A DNA stretch of 64,000 nt from contig VXMF01000005.1 of assembly GCA_009841225.1 (NCBI GenBank), forward strand, positions 62,001 through 126,000, in the 5' to 3' direction. Numbering within the stretch: the first letter of the stretch is position 1; every line of letters begins with the position of its first letter. The stretch is from Terriglobia bacterium. Its GTDB lineage: Bacteria; Acidobacteriota; Terriglobia; Bryobacterales; UBA6623. Under the pieces are notes generated by a model. That model had not been told where the DNA came from, ran no database searches, and saw only the letters and a list, made by a program, of their open reading frames with translations. A program made the position numbers and the translations under genes. This document shows positions 2,525 through 53,147 of the stretch, one piece after another.

Positions 2525-5500
2525 ATGACTAGACTACCCCGCGCAAGCTGGCTGGCAGCCGGCATGCTTGCGATTATCGGACTGATCGTTCCGTCCGCTG
2601 CCGCCCAGCTGATCCAAGGCGGGATCGACGGGTTGGTGACGGACACCACAGATGCCGCCATCGTCGGCGCTGAGGTCACGATCACCAACGAGGACACGGG
2701 CCAAGTCCGTGAAACAACCACCGGCGCTGCTGGCAACTACAGCTTCGCGACCGTGAACACCGGCAACTACACCGTGACAGTACGCTCGGACGGGTTCCAG
2801 GCGTATACCACGACCGGAGTCGTGGTTTCGCAGAACAACGTGACGCGCGTCAACGCGAGTCTGGAGATCGGCCAAGTCACCGAGGTCGTGACCGTCGAGG
2901 CTTCGGCCGCGACGCTCCAAACTGACCGTGCCGAGGTTCGGCAGGAGGTTACCGAGACAACTCTCAGGAACGTACCGGTTCCGCTCGGCCGGAACTACCA
3001 GATGCTATTCGTCACGCTGCCGGGCTTCTCGCCTCCTCAGAACGCGCACTCCGTGCCGACGAATCCGACCCGCGCGGTGCGCTTCTCGGTCAACGGCACG
3101 AGCCGCTCCAACAACAACACCCGCATCGACGGCGCTTCGTCAACCAATATCTGGGTGCCCCACATGACGGGCTACAATCCCGCGCTGGAGTCGATCGAGA
3201 CTGTGAACGTTGTCACGAACTCGTTCGATGCCGAGCAGGGCCTCGCCGGCGGCGCTGCGATCAATCTGCAAATCAAGTCGGGCACGAATGAAGTGCACGG
3301 TTCCGCATTCCAATACCACATGAACCAGCACTTGAAGGCCTATCCGTTCTTCAGCAATCGCAACTCTGCCCAGCCGAAACTGATCAACAACCAGTTCGGC
3401 GGCACGGTAGGCGGCCCGATCAAGCGCAACAAGTGGTTCTACTTTGTCAGCTACGAAGGCACCTATGAGTCGCGGTTCGCGCAGCGGTTCATCGACATGC
3501 CGACGAACACGATGCGGTTCGGCGACCTCACGGGGTCGCCGACGCCGATCTACGACCCGCTGACCGGGATCCAAGATATGAACGACTCCGGCTATGCACG
3601 AGACCGCGAACCATTCCCCGGGAATATGGTGCCGAGGAGTCGGATCGACTCTGGCGTGTCTGCCATGATCCATGACCCGGCATTCCCTGACCCGAACAAT
3701 ATCGGCAATCTGTTGGGCGGCAACGGCGGCTCGCTGGGGCTGGGGCAGAACCATGTAGCAGACGGCTCCACGACGTTCTTCCGCGACACGGTGGACGCGA
3801 AGACCAACTTCAACCTGAGTCCGACATTGACCGGCTTTATCCGGTTCAGCATGCTCGACTACCGAATGGCGAACGCACAGACGCTCGGGGCGTTCGGCGG
3901 AAACCGGCTGCACCCTACGAACTCGAATCCCGGCACGGGCTTCGGAAACACCTACTCCGGCACGATCTCCATCACGAAGGTCGTCTCACCGACCTTCATC
4001 GTCGACGGCTACTACGGCTACACGCTGGTGGACACCAATGTCGAACAGCAGCGGCTGGAGGAGAACCTCGGCTGGAGCGTGCTGGGGATCCCGGGCCTGC
4101 AGTCTAGCCGCTTTATCGACGGCGGATGGCCGCGCCTGCGCATCGACGGCTTCGAAGGCTTGGGAATGTCGAACAGCTTCCAACCGTACTACCGGTCCGA
4201 TCCGCAGAACCAGTTCGTGCTGAACGCGAACTTGACCAAGGGAACCCACAACATCCGCTTTGGGACCGACATCTACTTGCAGGATCTCGATCACAACCAG
4301 CCCGAGTTCTCAGGCGGCACGGGAGCCGCCTCGGGCGAGTTCCGCTTCCGCCAGAACACGACCGAACGCCGGGGTGGCGAGCGCGGGAACGACTACAACG
4401 CCCATGCGGCATGGCTGCTCGGGTTTCCGCAAAACGCGGGCAAGATCTGGCAGTTCAATGAGAACGGCTACTTCACGCGGACGCAGCTGCTCAGCTTCTA
4501 CGTGCGCGACCGCTGGCAGATCACTCCGAAGCTGACGATGTCCTACGGGCTGCGCTACGAGATCTTCCCGTTCCCGACGCGCGCGTCGCGAGGCTTGGAA
4601 CGGTACGACTTCTCCAACAACACGATCTGGGCGTGCGGCGTCGGGAGCATTCCAGAGGATTGCGGCATTGACGTCGGCAAGCACAACTTCGTGCCGCGGG
4701 TGGGATTGGCCTACCGCGTGGACGACGATACCGTCTTGCGCATCGGCTACGGCGTCACAGTGGATCCGTTCAACTGGGCGCGACCGCTGCGCACCAACTA
4801 CCCGATCATGGCCAAGGATGGCCCTGGGTTGCCGCACAGCTTCGGGTATTCGACCACCCTCAGGCAGGGCTTGGAGGTCATCAACGAACCGTCCCTCGGA
4901 GACGGAGTTCTAAATCTCCCGCTGAACACCAACGTGCGCACGATGGACACAGAAAACCTCACCAGAGGCTATATCCAGTCGTGGAACTTCACGCTGGAGC
5001 GGCGCTTCGGCAACTGGATCGCGACCGCAGGCTACGTGGCAACTCGCTCGGTCAACCAGCTTGCCGGCTTGGAACAGAACTGGGGCGACATCGGCGAGGG
5101 CAACGCGGGCCGCCAGCTGTTCAAACGCTGGGGCCGTTCCGGCTCGACTGCGCTGTTCGGCAGCCTCGGCACCGCCAAGTACGACTCCCTCCAGACGAAG
5201 CTCGAGCGCCGCTTCAGCAATGGTGTTCAGGTGAATCTCGCTTACACTTGGGCGCACGGCCGAGGCTATACCGACGAGGACTCCGGAGATGGCCCGGGGT
5301 TCTTCCGCATTCCTCGCTTCTACGACCGTACCTACGGCGATCTCAACCAAGACATCCGGCAGAACTTCCAGATGACCTTCATTTACGAGACTCCGTTTGG
5401 AAGGGGCAAGCGTCTGCTTACGGACAGCCCGCTGGGAATGATCCTGGGCGGCTGGCAGATCAATGGGCTCATGAGCGCGTATACGGGCACGCCGTTTTCT

Positions 5501-45501: not shown

Positions 45502-47904
45502 TCACCAAAACAGGCGCAGCCGCACGCTGGCCGCGAACGGCTGGAGCACGCGAGTGCCGACGAACACAGACTGGAAGCTGTACAGGGCCTCTCGATTCGT
45601 CAGGTTCGACACGTGGAACGCAACCTCCCAGACGCGCCGGTCAGCGCGATAGTGCTCGTAGCCGAGCGAGGCGTCGATGATCGTGCGCGGCCGGATCCGC
45701 GGCGGATCGCCCGCCAAGTCGACATACGGCAGAAGGTCGAAGTAGTCGGGATCGGCCGCGACCTGCTGGGGGTCGGAAGGATTGGAGACCAAACCGCTGT
45801 CATAGCGCAACTGCCAGCTCGTCCACCAGTGCTTGCCCGGGCGGTAGATCACGTTTCCGCTCATGCCCAAGGCTTGGTCATGGTCGATCACGAAGGGGCC
45901 CTCAGACAATGCGTCCAGGCTCGATCTGGCCAAGAACAGTCCTCCGGTGAACGGCGGAGTCACGATCGCCCGGAAGTGAGTCAGGCTCAGAGAGCCCGAA
46001 ACGCCGCGCCTCTCAGGCAAGACGACGCGCGCATCGACGCCATTCACCCGCGAGAATGCCAGCGACGTGGGGAAGATGATTCCCGTGTCGAGGAAGTTGT
46101 CGTTGTCCTGGGGGTTCGTCGAATTCTTGTGGTAGAAGGCAGCGTCGACTGACACGACGCCCCCGATGCTCTGCTGCAACCCGGTCTCGTACACGTTCTG
46201 GTACTGCGGCTGGATCGGAATCGATCCGCCGTTCAGGGACCTGCGCACGGCCGGGGGCGCGAGTTGGGCGGCTTGCTGGGAGTTTGCCAAGAGCAGGTTC
46301 TCATTGGGCGGCGTCTGGAAGTTGCGGTTGTAGGAAGCCCGCAGCACTGTGCCCGTGGACTCGATGTGGTAGGCCAGTCCGACCCGCGGCTGGAGCTCGC
46401 TGTCGACCACGAGCATGGAATAGCGATCCAGCCTTAGGCCGAGGTCGAGCACAACGTTGCGCCAGCGCACGCGGTCGCGCACAAACGTAGTCAGCAACTG
46501 GCCCGAGGCGCTCTGCTGGAAGCGGAAGCGCGCCCCTCCGCGGGTCAGGTCGAATGGCAGCAAGTTCGGGTTGAACTCATCAGACCCGGGAACGTTCACG
46601 AGCGCGTCAGTCAGTCCGAAGACGAAGTTCTCCGACACCGGGAAGTACTGACCGTCAAGTCCTACCGTGAGCTGGTGCGAGCCGCGCTGCCAGCTGAAGC
46701 GATTGAAGCTGGCCAGAGTCGAAAGCGAACGGGCCAGCTCCGCCGTGACAGGGGTGTCGCCCGGACTTGGCGTCAGGCTGCCCGCTGTTGTGCGAAACGA
46801 TGTGGTGGAATCGAACGTGGCCATGGGCGCCAGAATCCGCACGTAGCCGAGCGAGACGGCCTGGTCAGCCAGCAGCCGCCTCTGTTGCTGGCCGCTTGCG
46901 TGCTGGCTGCGCAGGTTGGCAAGTTGGAACGAAGACCGCCCGCCCATGGCCGTGATGCGGAACAGATCCCCTCTCGGGCGGTGCCAGTCCAGCCGCAGCG
47001 ATCCGCGCTGGGCGTTGCCGCCGTTGTGGAGGTTGTCCAGCGACGGCGAGTCGAGAAAGCGATTGGTCTTGACGCTGGAAATCGAGCCAAACCAGCCCAG
47101 AGTCCCGAGCGTCCCGCCGACCTGCGCTGCCTGCGACAACGTGTCGAATCCCCCGCCCCCCAGGTCAAGCTGTCCGAAAGTGCGGCCGCCGTTGTCAAAA
47201 CCGGATCGCGTCGTCACGCGCGCAACGCCGGAAACCTTCGCGCCATACTCGGGCGGGATGTTGCCAGTGAACAGTTCCAGAGTCTCGACCAAGTTGGGAT
47301 CGATCGAGGTCGCGAACTGCCCGGAGAACTGGTCGCTGATGGGCATTCCGTCAATCACGTAGGTCATCTGGTTGTGGGCGCCGCGCGGGTGGATCGAGCC
47401 GTTGGCGTTTGCGGCGAAGCCCGGGAAACCGAGCAGCACCGCCTCCAGGCCCCTGGTGGCGCTGCTGACCGGCAGCTTCTCGATGATCAAACGGCTGAGT
47501 TGAGTCTGCGTCCCGCTGGCCTCCGGATCCAGCAGAGCGATACTCGCGTTGGCACCAACGGACACCGATTCCAGTTGGGTCAACAACTCCAACTGGAGAT
47601 CAATGCTCATGGGTAAATTCGAGCGGAGTTCCACTCGACGGCTTGAAGGCCGGAATCCGAGCTGCATCGCCCGTAGCTCGTAGGCTTGGAAGGGGAGGTT
47701 GGTGAAGCGAAACCCGCCACTGGCGTCGGCCGTGACTTCGCGTTCGAAACCGGACACAGGGTGGATCAGCGAGACGGTGGCTCCGGCCACCGCGGCACCG
47801 GATGGATCGACCACTGTTCCGTTCAGCGTCGCCGCAGCCTGATTGGCGCTCGCGGAAGACACCGAGAAAAGAATTAGTGTCAGCAAGATTTGAATCACTG
47901 TCAT
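45502..47904 (-). CDS. TonB-dependent receptor, probably iron-regulated
   Basis: Outer-membrane receptor of 800 residues. Signal peptide (about 1-21), carboxypeptidase-regulatory-like domain (about 25-105, LNGTVVDPSGAAVAGATVSL), plug (about 110-235, with YVIDGMPISDQFSGQF and VSGVARVTTRSG), then a barrel ending RLRLFW with the terminal aromatic residue. It is shorter than the other two receptors here. A DtxR/IdeR-like box lies 13 bp before the start codon, so the cargo may be an iron or manganese complex; that is inference from the site alone. Confidence 0.88.
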   Translation of the reverse strand: MTVIQILLTLILFSVSSASANQAAATLNGTVVDPSGAAVAGATVSLIHPVSGFEREVTADASGGFRFTNLPFQAYELRAMQLGFRPSSRRVELRSNLPMSIDLQLELLTQLESVSVGANASIALLDPEASGTQTQLSRLIIEKLPVSSATRGLEAVLLGFPGFAANANGSIHPRGAHNQMTYVIDGMPISDQFSGQFATSIDPNLVETLELFTGNIPPEYGAKVSGVARVTTRSGFDNGGRTFGQLDLGGGGFDTLSQAAQVGGTLGTLGWFGSISSVKTNRFLDSPSLDNLHNGGNAQRGSLRLDWHRPRGDLFRITAMGGRSSFQLANLRSQHASGQQQRRLLADQAVSLGYVRILAPMATFDSTTSFRTTAGSLTPSPGDTPVTAELARSLSTLASFNRFSWQRGSHQLTVGLDGQYFPVSENFVFGLTDALVNVPGSDEFNPNLLPFDLTRGGARFRFQQSASGQLLTTFVRDRVRWRNVVLDLGLRLDRYSMLVVDSELQPRVGLAYHIESTGTVLRASYNRNFQTPPNENLLLANSQQAAQLAPPAVRRSLNGGSIPIQPQYQNVYETGLQQSIGGVVSVDAAFYHKNSTNPQDNDNFLDTGIIFPTSLAFSRVNGVDARVVLPERRGVSGSLSLTHFRAIVTPPFTGGLFLARSSLDALSEGPFVIDHDQALGMSGNVIYRPGKHWWTSWQLRYDSGLVSNPSDPQQVAADPDYFDLLPYVDLAGDPPRIRPRTIIDASLGYEHYRADRRVWEVAFHVSNLTNREALYSFQSVFVGTRVLQPFAASVRLRLFW

Positions 47905-47934: not shown

Positions 47935-48217
47935 TTAATTCCGCAGTCAATCGGGTTTGTTCCTCTAGCGGGCAAATTGTCGCGGCTTGCCACCAAGTCG
48001 TAGGTTGTAGATCCAGGCGCAGGAGACATCGGCGTGGGCCCCACAAGGTCCAAGCAGACCTGCGCGGAGTTTCGTACGCTCCGCTATCCCTGTCGGCTCG
48101 ATACCAGCCTCGCTTTACTCACGCAGCATGAAGCGCTGGACTAGCTGCACCAGCCCCGCAGCATCAGTGCCTAGTCCCCGCTTCTGGCAACATCCTGCTC
48201 CGAACGGAACCGCCTAT
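47935..48217. other. Intergenic region between receptor and Fic gene
   Basis: Part of a 418-bp divergent gap. Apart from the metal box on the left and the half-site array on the right, I see no gene, RNA or repeat in this stretch. Confidence 0.45.
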
Positions 48218-48307
48218 GCGCAAGTTTCACGGTATTCGCGCAATTTTACCTAACCATTGCATTGAAAATTGCGCATAGATCGCGTAAAATGAGCTATAGG
48301 CGCAATT
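48218..48307 (+). promoter_or_regulatory. GCGCAATT half-site array upstream of the Fic-like gene
   Basis: Four copies of a GCGCAAnTTT-type half-site occur: GCGCAAGTTT at 48218, GCGCAATTTT at 48238 (exactly 20 bp on), its perfect inverse AAAATTGCGC at 48265-48274, and GCGCAATT at 48300-48307. The inverted pair overlaps the -35 and spacer of the promoter at 48262-48290. This looks like an autoregulatory operator, possibly for the N-terminal winged-helix-like domain of the encoded protein. Confidence 0.65.
48262..48290 (+). promoter_or_regulatory. Fic-like gene promoter
   Basis: TTGAAA (48262-48267) and TAAAAT (48285-48290) with the optimal 17-bp spacer lie 32 bp before the ATG. A GGGAGG ribosome site follows at about 48311-48316. 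Confidence 0.72.
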
Positions 48308-48322
48308 AAGGGAGGTGCGCTC

Positions 48323-49720
48323 ATGAAACGCATTGCCGAGGCGGACCTACTGGCCATCGAAGAGCTTGTACGCGGACGGACGGACGGCTCGACTGCGAAG
48401 CAGATCGCGGCAGGGCTCGATCCCTCACCGCCGCGCCGGACACTGCAGTATCGTCTTAAGTCGCTAGTCGACAGCCAGCGGTTGGCTGTACAGGGTTCGG
48501 GGCGCTGGACACGATATCGCATGCCCACGGCTGTCCCGTTGTTGGCCGAGCTCCGTACCGGGCGAGCGACAGTGAGCGGCCGCGTCCTTGCAATGGAACC
48601 GCTCTCCAAGGCTGGTGCCGCAGTTCGGAATCAGGTCGAGCTACCTCTCGAAGTGCGCGAACCAGTTGGCTATCATCGCGATTTCCTCGACTCATATCTG
48701 CCCAACCGGACCTTCTATCTCTCGGAAGTGGAGCGAACTGAGCTCCGGAAAATTGGCTCGGCCGCGCCTGCTGAACAGCCGGCGGGCAGTTTTGCCAAGC
48801 AGATCCTGAACCGGCTGCTGATCGACCTCTCATGGAACTCCAGCCGCTTGGAGGGCAACACCTATTCTCTGCTCGATGCGGAGCGCCTTATCGAAGCAGG
48901 CGAGGAGGCGGAGGGGAAGGATACACGCGAAACCCAGATGATTCTGAACCACAAAGATGCCATCGCCTTTCTCGTCGACGGGGCGGAGGAGATCGGGTTC
49001 AATCGCCACACCATCCTCAGCCTTCACGCCTGGCTGGCGGACAACTTGCTGCCGGATCCGGCAGCGCCGGGCCGGCTCCGCTTCCGAGGCGTAGGCATAG
49101 GGGGTTCGGTCTTCCGCCCGCTCGAGGTACCGCAATTGATCGAGGAGTGCTTCGACCTGGCTCTCGCGAAGGTCTCGGTGATAGAAGACCCGTTTGAGCA
49201 GGCCTTTTTCGCGATGGTGCAGTTCCCCTATCTACAGCCTTTCGACGACGTCAACAAGCGCGTCTCCCGGCTCGCCGCGAATATCCCGTTCATCAGAGCG
49301 AATCTGTCGCCCCTGTCGTTTGAAGAGGTGCCGCGCGACCACTATTCCAAAGCGTTGCTCGGCGTGTACGAACTCCGACGCACTGAACTGCTGCGCGATC
49401 TGTTCGTGCGGGCTTACAGGCAGTCTGCCGCCCGCTATGCGGCTGTACGACAGTCAATCGGTGAGCCCGACGCGCTCCGGATGCGATACCGCAACGCGTT
49501 GCGGGAGGTTGTAGCCGCTGTTGTGCACGCAGCCATGGACAAGAAGCAGGCTGCCGCCCATGTCGCGTCATGGGCAGGCGAGCACATCGCGGAACCTGAC
49601 CGCGAACGCTTTCGGTCCATCGCCGAGCGTGAATTGCTGAGCCTGCACCAAGGCAACTTCGCACGCTACCGCGTCACGCCCTCCGAATTCGCCACTTGGC
49701 ATGGGGTTTGGAACCGGTAA
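48323..49720 (+). CDS. Fic-domain protein with N-terminal winged-helix-like region
   Basis: A 465-residue cytoplasmic protein. Residues about 5-70 look like a winged helix (TAKQIAAGLDPSPPRRTLQYRLKSL). A Fic_N-like helical region holds an inhibitory-type motif S173-x-x-x-E177-G (SSRLEGN), placing it among Fic proteins with an N-terminal inhibitory helix. The active-site loop reads LQPFDDVNKRVSR (304-316), so the catalytic His of HxFx(D/E)GN(G/K)R is Gln305 and the first Gly is Val310. Canonical AMP transfer is therefore doubtful. No partner antitoxin gene adjoins it. The strong autoregulatory-looking promoter fits a DNA-binding role. Confidence 0.85.
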   Translation: MKRIAEADLLAIEELVRGRTDGSTAKQIAAGLDPSPPRRTLQYRLKSLVDSQRLAVQGSGRWTRYRMPTAVPLLAELRTGRATVSGRVLAMEPLSKAGAAVRNQVELPLEVREPVGYHRDFLDSYLPNRTFYLSEVERTELRKIGSAAPAEQPAGSFAKQILNRLLIDLSWNSSRLEGNTYSLLDAERLIEAGEEAEGKDTRETQMILNHKDAIAFLVDGAEEIGFNRHTILSLHAWLADNLLPDPAAPGRLRFRGVGIGGSVFRPLEVPQLIEECFDLALAKVSVIEDPFEQAFFAMVQFPYLQPFDDVNKRVSRLAANIPFIRANLSPLSFEEVPRDHYSKALLGVYELRRTELLRDLFVRAYRQSAARYAAVRQSIGEPDALRMRYRNALREVVAAVVHAAMDKKQAAAHVASWAGEHIAEPDRERFRSIAERELLSLHQGNFARYRVTPSEFATWHGVWNR

Positions 49721-49874
49721 GAGGGCTTAAGCGCGACGCAGCACAGTGCAGCAGGCCTTGAAATTCGCATTTGAGAGCGGAAACAGTGGTACTGTATTGG
49801 CGGGCAGCTTGGGCAGGCCGCGCAGCTTTGGGCGGGCGCTCAACTGCGAAAGTTGCGATTGGGGGGGACCTAGC

Positions 49875-52800
49875 ATGCATCGAAACCTCTGGCTCCTAGT
49901 GGGAGCGCTACTCCTAATGGGCGCGGCCATCGGCCTGGCCCAGACCAACGCCACGCTGACTGGGACCGTCAGCGACGGATCCGGCGCGGTGATTCCCGGC
50001 GCCGAGATCGTGATCATGAACATGGAAACCGGCGAGTCGTACACGACAACGACGAACGAGACAGGCAGCTACACGATCCCGTTCATCAAACCCGGCACGT
50101 TTGAGTTGATCGTCACCACGGCCGGCTTCAAGCAGTACACGCGAGAGGGTATCCGTCTAGACACCGCTTCGTCGGCTAGGGCTGACGCGGTAATGGAGCT
50201 CGGCGAAGTCACGGAGTCGGTCACGGTGGAAGCCGATGTGCCATTACTCAAGACCGAGAATTCCTCGGTTGGCGGAGTGATCCAGAACCGGTCCATCGCG
50301 AACATGCCGTTGCTCGGGCGGCGAGCGGCCCAGCTAGTCCGCCTCAGCGGCTTTGTCGTCCAACGCGGCAACGGCTCGCAATTCCAGATCGCCGGTGGCC
50401 GAAGCAACAACGCCATGTGGACCTTGGACGGCGGCTCGACGCAGAACATCCTCTTGGGCGTCGCCTCGCTGAACTACGACCCGCCGATTGAGGCCCTGGA
50501 AGAGATGAACGTCGAGGTCTCGAACTACAAGGCCGAGATGGGGCGCTCGGGAGGCGGCTTCATCCAGATGACGACCAAGTCTGGGACCAACAGCCTTCAC
50601 GGAGCGGTCTACGAGTTCGTTCGCAACGACGCCATGGACTCGCGACACTTCTTCTCAGGCTCGAACAAGCAACTCCTCCGCCGGAACCAGTACGGCTGGG
50701 CCCTCGGCGGGCCGATCGCCAAGGACAGGAGCTTCTTCTTCGCCAGCCAGGAGTTCACGAACATTCGGACGGCGTCTCCCCGGATCGAGAACATCCCCGA
50801 TCCGGCCGAAACGCGCGGCGACTTCTCCGGCTTGGGCACGACGATCCGCAATCCGGTGACCATGGAACCAGTTCCGAACAATATGATCCCCGCAGCCGAC
50901 TTGGATCCGGTCGGGGCTGCCGTCGCGAAGTTCTGGCCGACGCCTAACGTCGAGGGACGGCCGTCTCGGAGCCGGAACTTCCAGAACAACGCCCGCAACA
51001 CGAACGACAACAACACGCTGTCACTCCGCGTCGACCACACTTTGAACGAGCGACACCGCTTGTACGGTCGATACGTTCACACCATCGGCAACCGCGAGGA
51101 CTTCAAGGATTTCTGGCCTCAGCCGGTCCACACCGCCCAGCGAATCAACAAGTACCACTACTTCAACTGGTCGGTGACGGAGATCTCGAATCTCACGAAC
51201 AAGTTGGTCACGGAGAACCGCTTCACGTGGAACAAGCGGAAATGGCACCCCACCATCGCCGCCAAGGGCCTCGGCCTATCCCAACAGATCGGTTTCACCG
51301 GTAACAACCCGGAATTCTTCCCCGGATTCGGCCTGGCCGGCGGAATCCAGCGCATCGGTCGCGGCGGCGGCCAGGAGCGCCGGCAGTTCCCGATCCGCGA
51401 CAACCACATCGTTTCCAACTGGACCTACGTGAGCGGCAAGCACACGCTGAAGTGGGGCGGAGAGTTCCGCTGGTCGATCAACGACGACGTGTTCCTGTCC
51501 CAAGCCGGCGGTTCGATGAACTTCAACCAGAACGCCACCGGCGACTCGGTCGCGGCCCTGCTTTACGGATGGGTGGCAGGCGGCAGCCGGCAGGAGACGT
51601 TCCTGATCCGCAGCCGGGCGAACTCCATGGGCCTGTACGTGCAGGACGACTGGAAGGTAACGCCCAAGCTGTCATTGAACCTGGGCCTGCGCTGGGACTT
51701 CGACACGCCGCGGTGGGAAGCGATCGACAACCGCCAGAATTCGTTCGACGCGGCGGGCAACAACCCCGTCTGCGATTGCCCGGGAGTGATCACGTGGTCC
51801 GGCCGCGATGCCCGCAATGGCAGCAGGTACGCGCATAACTTCGTCTACGGCAACATCGGACCGCGCGTGGGCTTCTCGTATCGCGCCACCGACGACTGGG
51901 TGATCCGCGCCGGCGCATCGATCGTCTACATCGGGCAGTACGACCAAGCGACCCCGGTCGTCACCAACGCGGGTTTCTCGATTCAGGGCACGTTTGGCAC
52001 GCTGCGCCCGACCGATGCGGCCTTCCTGCTGCGTGACGGCCTGCCGCCGGTCATCGAACCGACCGAGGCCGACCTCGTGCCGGGCTTCGGCGCAGTCCCG
52101 ATCGGCGACCGTCCGAGGTTCTCGCCGCAGTTCTTCGAGCCCGAGAGACGCCCGAATCCGTACCTGCTCACGTATAACTTCAACATCCAGCGCCGCCTGC
52201 CCGGCGACATGCTCTTCGAGGTCGGCTACCTGTCGACTATCGGCAAGAAGCTGACCATCCCCGGGTCGGCAACGCAGAACCAGGTCCACCCGTCGCAGAT
52301 CCACCTCGTGGACAGCCAAGGCATCGCTCCACAGGTGCTGCGCCCGTTCCCGCAGTTCTCGAACGTGGTGATGATCTCGCCGACCTTTGGCGATTCGGAA
52401 TACCACGGCGTGAACTTCAAACTCGAGAAGCGCTACTCGAACGGCATCCAGTTCCAAACCAACTACACCTGGGCCAAGGCGATGGACAATGTCGAGGGCC
52501 GCAATGAGTTGGGCGGCGAAGACGGCCGTGTCCCGTTCTCGGACCAGTACAACCGCCGGATCGCATGGTCCCTGGGGGGCAGCCACGTCGCCCATCGCGC
52601 TGTCTTCAGCTTGGTCTACGAGCTCCCGCTGGGCCAAGGGCGCGCGGTGGCCTTCAGCAGCGGCGTGCTCAACCAGATCCTGGGCGGCTGGTCGCTGGGG
52701 ACCATCGTGGAAGCGCGCACCGGCCCCCCCTTCTCGGCGTATTGGGGCAACGCCAGCCAGGTCTACCCGACAGCAGCGCGCGTCCGCGCTGACGTGAGCG

Positions 52801-53147
52801 GAGACTACCAGCGCAACGGCTCGTGGCGCGACAACGTCCGCGGCGAGAAGTTCTTCAACACGTCGGTATTCCATCGCCCGGCACGCTTTACGTTCGGTGA
52901 ACTTGGCCGGAACGCGTTCATCGCCCCCGGGGCGCTACGCGCCGACCTCTCGATCATCAAGGACATCCGCATGCCGTGGGAGGGCCACACCCTGCAGTTC
53001 CGCGGCGAAGTCATCAACCTGCCGAACCGGGCCAACTTCGGCCAACCAGTCGGCAACGTGCAGAACCGCGCGTTTGGCAACATCACCGGTCTGACACCGG
53101 GGGCCTCGGGCCGTATTCTCCAACTCGGCCTGCGCTACGGCTTCTAG
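49875..53147 (+). CDS. TonB-dependent receptor with carboxypeptidase-regulatory-like N-domain
   Basis: Outer-membrane transporter of 1090 residues. Signal peptide (MHRNLWLLVGALLLMGAAIGLAQ), regulatory-like beta domain (about 27-110, LTGTVSDGSGAVIPGAEIVI), plug (about 115-245, with NMPLLGRRAAQLVRL and IQMTTKSGTNSLHGAVYEF) and a long barrel ending LRYGF. I start at 49875, where the signal peptide begins; the longer frame adds 43 unconvincing residues. It resembles the receptor at 2525-5908 in layout and ends at a good terminator. The ligand is unknown; nearby serine hydrolase and PmoA genes hint at an organic substrate. Confidence 0.9.
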   Translation: MHRNLWLLVGALLLMGAAIGLAQTNATLTGTVSDGSGAVIPGAEIVIMNMETGESYTTTTNETGSYTIPFIKPGTFELIVTTAGFKQYTREGIRLDTASSARADAVMELGEVTESVTVEADVPLLKTENSSVGGVIQNRSIANMPLLGRRAAQLVRLSGFVVQRGNGSQFQIAGGRSNNAMWTLDGGSTQNILLGVASLNYDPPIEALEEMNVEVSNYKAEMGRSGGGFIQMTTKSGTNSLHGAVYEFVRNDAMDSRHFFSGSNKQLLRRNQYGWALGGPIAKDRSFFFASQEFTNIRTASPRIENIPDPAETRGDFSGLGTTIRNPVTMEPVPNNMIPAADLDPVGAAVAKFWPTPNVEGRPSRSRNFQNNARNTNDNNTLSLRVDHTLNERHRLYGRYVHTIGNREDFKDFWPQPVHTAQRINKYHYFNWSVTEISNLTNKLVTENRFTWNKRKWHPTIAAKGLGLSQQIGFTGNNPEFFPGFGLAGGIQRIGRGGGQERRQFPIRDNHIVSNWTYVSGKHTLKWGGEFRWSINDDVFLSQAGGSMNFNQNATGDSVAALLYGWVAGGSRQETFLIRSRANSMGLYVQDDWKVTPKLSLNLGLRWDFDTPRWEAIDNRQNSFDAAGNNPVCDCPGVITWSGRDARNGSRYAHNFVYGNIGPRVGFSYRATDDWVIRAGASIVYIGQYDQATPVVTNAGFSIQGTFGTLRPTDAAFLLRDGLPPVIEPTEADLVPGFGAVPIGDRPRFSPQFFEPERRPNPYLLTYNFNIQRRLPGDMLFEVGYLSTIGKKLTIPGSATQNQVHPSQIHLVDSQGIAPQVLRPFPQFSNVVMISPTFGDSEYHGVNFKLEKRYSNGIQFQTNYTWAKAMDNVEGRNELGGEDGRVPFSDQYNRRIAWSLGGSHVAHRAVFSLVYELPLGQGRAVAFSSGVLNQILGGWSLGTIVEARTGPPFSAYWGNASQVYPTAARVRADVSGDYQRNGSWRDNVRGEKFFNTSVFHRPARFTFGELGRNAFIAPGALRADLSIIKDIRMPWEGHTLQFRGEVINLPNRANFGQPVGNVQNRAFGNITGLTPGASGRILQLGLRYGF

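Follow-up and report, generated by a model that had tools for sequence, protein, structure and literature searches.

At positions 48323-49720 of the window, the 64,000-nucleotide stretch of a Terriglobia genome analysed here, lies a plus-strand open reading frame (ORF) for a Fic-fold protein, its ATG preceded by a ribosome-binding GGGAGG (Table 1). A preliminary description had placed four half-sites around a TTGAAA-N17-TAAAAT promoter upstream of this gene and had proposed that its product is a self-controlling regulator with an altered Fic pocket. The promoter is present (found once against 0.2 expected) and recurs at the same spacing in two sister species, as TTGAGA-N17-TAGAGT (L025) and TTGATA-N17-TATAGT (L026). 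Half-sites also stand at all four positions, their centres 20, 31 and 31 bp apart; three are exact copies of GCGCAATT and the fourth is the variant GCGCAAGTT, so that they do not form four exact copies. Under a weight matrix derived for the family they score 17.0-19.8 bits, while the next best match in the 64 kb reaches 14.5 bits. The bare count of GCGCAATT was rejected as evidence, as its 5 occurrences in the window are no excess over the 3.0 expected by chance, and the weight therefore lies on clustering and conservation.

Table 1. Coordinates of the Fic-fold gene, its predicted domains and motifs, and its upstream elements in the window.
Feature	Position	Strand	Basis or conservation
Half-site 1, GCGCAAGTT within TATGCGCAAGTT	48218..48226	+	Sequence; 17.7 bits, family matrix; conserved in L025, L026
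Half-site 2, GCGCAATT, 20 bp from site 1	48238..48245	+	17.0 bits, family matrix
Sigma-70-like promoter (predicted), TTGAAA-N17-TAAAAT	48262..48290	+	Sequence; retained in L025, L026
Half-site 3, GCGCAATT, start of promoter spacer, 31 bp from site 2	48267..48274	-	19.8 bits, family matrix
Half-site 4, GCGCAATT, just past -10 box, 31 bp from site 3	48300..48307	+	18.0 bits, family matrix
Fic-fold winged-helix protein, 465 aa ORF	48323..49720	+	Pfam, AlphaFold, Foldseek
Winged-helix DNA-binding domain (predicted), residues 1-67; recognition helix 38-50; Y43	48323..48523	+	AlphaFold; residue-base covariation
Inhibitory helix motif S173-S-R-L-E177-G178-N-T (SSRLEG intact)	48839..48862	+	S173, E177, G178, N179 144/144
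Altered Fic motif Q305-P-F-D-D-V310-N-K-R-V-S-R316	49235..49270	+	Q305 143/144, V310 135/144

The Pfam Fic model (PF02661) matches residues 226-320 at 37.6 bits against a cut-off of 24, and also matches all 68 relatives sampled. An AlphaFold model built on 63 aligned sequences, with plasmid-record proteins left out, has a predicted local distance difference test (pLDDT) value of 90.2. Its Fic body is nearly all helical and is closest by Foldseek to FICD and Fic-1 (best 1.8e-9), with weaker matches to 7xux, SoFic and CbFic2; together with the Pfam score, the FICD matches place the protein in the Fido fold superfamily. N-terminal to the Fic body, and followed by a disordered linker at residues 71-88, the model contains a winged helix-turn-helix (HTH) domain at residues 6-66, comprising helices at 6-17, 25-31 and 38-50 and strands at 55-57 and 64-66. 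The winged-helix-like region of the preliminary description is thereby borne out, with additional support from Pfam HTH matches in part of the relatives. The genome carrying the window (G000) holds about 11 Fic-family matches, and a whole-protein search with the Gln-type protein returns the window copy only.

The active site is altered in the manner first described: in the window motif YLQPFDDVNKRVSRL, Q305 replaces the catalytic His and V310 the first loop Gly, departing from the active AMP-transferase motif HPFx(D/E)GN(G/K)R, while N311-K312-R313 and S173-S-R-L-E177-G178 are kept. The suggested search for an LQPFDDVNKR variant subfamily, extended over Acidobacteriota genomes, GTDB contigs, plasmids, viral contigs and three further genome groups, yielded 144 non-redundant members. 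Gln is found at position 305 in 143 of these, drawn from about six phyla (the remaining member has R), and is retained even in a plasmid relative only 34% identical across the Fic part. The rest of the pocket is conserved to a similar degree, with N311, K312 and R316 invariant, R313 in 143 members and D309 in 142. Such retention, with invariant pocket residues, indicates that the altered site is a family signature and not local decay. Comparison with two sister species gave a ratio of nonsynonymous to synonymous substitution rates (dN/dS) of ~0.24 (0.036/0.149; 0.073/0.312), as expected under purifying selection; judging from these alignments, a Fic pocket without its catalytic base is held under strong selection, in agreement with the proposal of a dead or repurposed pocket.

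In class II Fic enzymes, ATP is kept from binding productively by the inhibitory Glu, which forms a pair with the motif's second Arg. With S173, E177, G178 and the partner R316 present in every relative, the family belongs to this class. Given that Glu177 and Arg316 are invariant although no catalysis should be left to inhibit, we infer that the pocket acts as a switch.

Arrays were scored by the 9-mer that repeats best within the 200 bp upstream of each gene, counting both strands and tolerating up to 1 mismatch; Markov shuffles and 1,152 stretches drawn from the same loci served as controls. The mean best score upstream of the 144 relatives was 4.54 copies, compared with 2.20 for the shuffles and 2.23 for the control DNA. 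Scores of at least 3.5 occurred in 86% of relatives against 3.8% of controls, and of at least 4.5 in 55% against 0.35%. For 30 Fic genes of the ordinary type from this phylum, with the motif HPFxxGN(G/K)R or one close to it, the mean was 2.3, and none scored 4.5 or more. A weight matrix with the layout AT-rich, TTGCGC, n, T, A was applied to members whose residue 43 is Tyr, His or Phe, and identified 4.6 sites per 200 bp upstream of these genes and 0.06 in controls; as its training set consisted of these very upstream regions, the argument is carried by the controls and not by the absolute score. The search for conserved upstream half-sites advised by the preliminary description thus finds the array kept across the family. 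Of 144 adjacent site pairs in ++ orientation, 122 lie 19-21 bp apart, and opposed copies are mostly 17-19, 12-13 or 31 bp apart.

Individual loci depart from this arrangement in length or spacing. Upstream of L099, which has Asp at residue 43, eight TCGCGCATAGAG-type half-sites form a 20-bp tandem array (-184 to -24), and L139 possesses a very long TTTGGCGCAAA-type array of ~20-bp period extending to about -400, far past the promoter. In L151, L135, L136 and L137, a spacing of ~10 bp occurs beside or in place of the 20-bp one, as exemplified by the seven TGTCGTAAT copies of L151, which suggests that the protein is packed differently on the DNA.

Members without GCGCAA mostly carry other half-sites at the same place, and these go with particular winged-helix sequences: TGGCGCGAT with RTLQRWLK, TTGCGCGAT with RTLQYWLK, AATGTCCTA with TARKAIRRAL and ATTGGGACA with TERKAIRRAL. 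With the rest of the protein regressed out, half-site similarity correlates with winged-helix identity at a partial r of 0.41, reached in 0 of 300 permutations; for the rest of the protein given the winged helix, the partial r is 0.15. Mutual information with the second base of TNGCG peaks, over all 465 positions, at residue 43, which lies midway along the recognition helix. Y, H or F at this position accompanies T in 76 cases and G in 2, R accompanies T in 5 and G in 17 (Fisher 6e-13), and the single Asp43 (L099) goes with TCGCG, next to TTGCG for Y/H/F43 and TGGCG for R43. The strongest part of this evidence lies in close pairs, in which both residue and half-site differ: L003/L004 (R43, TGGCGCGAT) and L070/L078 (Y43, TTGCGCGAT) are 78-82% identical, and L067 (R43, TGGCGCATA) and L055 (H43, TTGCGCATA) 80% identical. 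Residue 43 is the most likely contact of the second half-site base; no single residue stood out clearly as a predictor of half-site position 6. The four loci of the first comparison also constitute a subgroup of longer members (556-559 aa, ~90 aa above the others).

As the protein is linked to the array by sequence evidence, a host-encoded regulator might instead read the array, the Fic gene being merely its target. We consider this very improbable: the array accompanies the gene across unrelated phyla and covaries with the winged helix, its best predictor is one recognition-helix residue, and searches of the own genome with paired half-site patterns returned no second array. A deletion of ~437 bp in the sister genome L028 (at 3990-4010; the lost DNA corresponds to window 48200-48636) is compatible with this judgement without proving it, in that it takes array, promoter and winged helix together. 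What is left in L028 is a Fic body of ~330 aa at 90% identity, which would make it a natural case in which operator and DNA binding were lost in a single event.

Taken together, these findings suggest that the window protein is probably a stand-alone one-component autoregulator on a Fic fold without catalytic base. The self-control first proposed for it gains strong support from an array that is retained alongside the gene in different phyla and from half-sites that covary with the winged helix, above all with residue 43. The winged helix would read TTGCGCnTA half-sites over and beside its own promoter, and since one site falls between the -35 and -10 elements and one just after the -10, binding most likely represses transcription. 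Binding is most likely cooperative, involving sites spaced by roughly two or three turns of the DNA helix. The Fic pocket, with Glu177, Arg316, N311, K312 and R313 kept, would most likely serve as a ligand sensor, probably for a nucleotide (nucleotide sensing being plausible for such a pocket), and its ligand would alter DNA binding in place of AMP transfer. The computations themselves show the fold, the loss of the His, the array throughout the family, its spacing and the covariation; repression, cooperativity and ligand sensing are inferences.

A number of observations weigh against this interpretation. The covariation is partly clade-structured: by Fitch parsimony, residue 43 changed only 4 times and the base 9 times. 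Partial Mantel tests and parsimony leave some effect of common descent. Seven of 100 members break the simple residue-43 rule, among them the R-with-T cases L017, L121, L138 and L141; these have TGTCGCA-type half-sites with TTGCG on the other strand, and so are perhaps not true exceptions. The sign of regulation is read from where the sites lie in the window and its sister species, the promoter prediction in other relatives being too weak for family-wide use (mean 7.1 versus 6.4 shuffled). Finally, a regulator controlling solely itself has no obvious benefit, which implies that some output is missing from the picture.

One such output would be a regulon, with the protein regulating other genes and self-control a side effect. 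The lack of evident output in a purely self-controlling protein speaks for this, as does the fact that the genome-wide scan covered part of the possible array arrangements. However, searches of the 5.7-Mb own genome with paired half-site patterns detected no second cluster with AT-rich context, and the flanks of the 144 relatives contain 10 three-site clusters outside the gene's own upstream region, all of them chance cases of overlapping palindromes or the extended own array of L139. No neighbouring gene is conserved either, and we regard a regulon as improbable. An excess of GCGCAA pairs over a reversed control in the own genome was discarded as a regulon candidate, since the pairs lack AT-rich context and probably reflect word bias.

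Relatives were identified in Acidobacteriota, Proteobacteria, Rhodothermales, Gemmatimonadota, Planctomycetes and Verrucomicrobia, as well as on plasmids, where neighbours include integrases and conjugation genes. Their occurrence is patchy (21 of 396 Acidobacteriota genomes; 34 of 321, 7 of 337 and 6 of 296 in three other groups), and this scatter over unrelated bacteria and plasmids suggests that gene and operator move horizontally as a unit. Two copies within one genome (G173) differ in their half-sites, AATGTCCTA in L009 and TGGGACAGA in L022, and such differences would keep the copies insulated from each other.

Patchiness and mobility of this kind would also suit a stand-alone toxin or defence effector acting on a cellular target, perhaps by other chemistry with Gln305, whose array merely keeps expression low until some trigger releases the promoter. 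Autoregulation is compatible with this alternative, some loci adjoin GajA-like or short-Argonaute genes, and the PADLOC candidate defence family PDC-S04 gives a partial match (4e-14). That match is limited to the Fic body (residues 159-345), however, and 143 of 144 members lack the general base for AMP transfer. Neighbouring genes were mixed in function, defence types making up a small minority of the 103 scanned with Pfam and PADLOC, and neither these scans nor the 714 neighbouring ORFs of the 144 loci revealed a conserved partner gene. For an antitoxin-like partner in particular, no neighbour of at least 90 aa recurred across the loci beyond groups of 5; upstream neighbours are divergent in about half of cases (33 of 67). 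On balance an effector role seems somewhat unlikely. A wider conjecture, which we offer tentatively at a little under even chances, is that these proteins form a large family of horizontally moving pseudo-Fic transcription factors across phyla, in which the Glu brake of the class II ATP pocket has turned into a nucleotide-sensing DNA-binding switch and private operator arrays, each co-evolving with the recognition helix of its copy, insulate the copies.

Several characterized Fic proteins share parts of this architecture. CccR (YPK_0951) of Yersinia pseudotuberculosis also joins a Fic fold to an HTH domain and binds and represses its own promoter, as determined by footprinting and lacZ fusions (PMC9755527). 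It is probably PDB 7xux, a 380-aa Fic protein matching the window protein by profile (5e-6) and fold (5.8e-6). In contrast to the window protein, CccR retains its catalytic His (H192) and AMPylates FtsZ (PMC9755527), its HTH is C-terminal, and its operator is one pair of 10-bp inverted repeats, not a predicted half-site array. CbFic2 (CBU_0822; PDB 8cil) of Coxiella burnetii is likewise a class II Fic protein with an inhibitory helix and a DNA-binding winged HTH, whose activity is stimulated by DNA, so that DNA binding and Fic pocket communicate (PMC10628234); it differs in having an active HPFDDGNGR motif, a C-terminal HTH and no known specific operator. The Fic fold, class II inhibitory helix and winged HTH are shared by SoFic (SO_4266) of Shewanella oneidensis (PDB 3eqx/3zcn), the PADLOC model of which matches at 4e-11, but its His is active, its winged HTH is C-terminal and the whole-protein fold match is weak (template modelling score, TM, ~0.4). 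FICD/HYPE and Fic-1 (PDB 6i7g, 5jj6) match residues 156-345 best, both by fold and by sequence, including the inhibitory-helix arrangement, yet are eukaryotic, active-His proteins without a DNA-binding domain. The phage P1 toxin Doc has the same D-x-N-K-R motif end; it needs His, is short and is paired with Phd, whereas the window protein has 465 residues and no partner was found among its neighbours. HTH domains fused to Fic had been proposed in general to control fic expression by Kinch et al. 2009 (PMC2686095). A Gln-motif Fic family with operator arrays is absent from the CccR, CbFic2 and Kinch accounts, and no description of the QPFDDVNKR subfamily was found in the open-access papers searched; prior work outside them is possible.

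Fic proteins are usually studied as AMP-transferases. A widespread subfamily always lacking the catalytic base, with the pocket otherwise kept and a co-evolving operator array, would, if our interpretation is true, represent a pseudoenzyme turned transcription switch. The subfamily offers a direct and inexpensive way to test the capacities that the conserved inhibitory-helix pocket has once catalysis is gone, and the pairings of residue 43 with a half-site base provide ready material for a specificity swap.

With respect to gene surroundings, the Fic gene of the Undibacterium plasmid locus L110 (1-6584) stands beside genes for a WYL regulator, a multiubiquitin protein, a ThiF-type adenylyltransferase and an integrase. 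In the window, the Fic gene is bordered on either side by a large TonB-dependent-receptor-like gene (45502-47904, minus strand; 49746-53147, plus strand), both with carboxypeptidase-regulatory-like N-termini.
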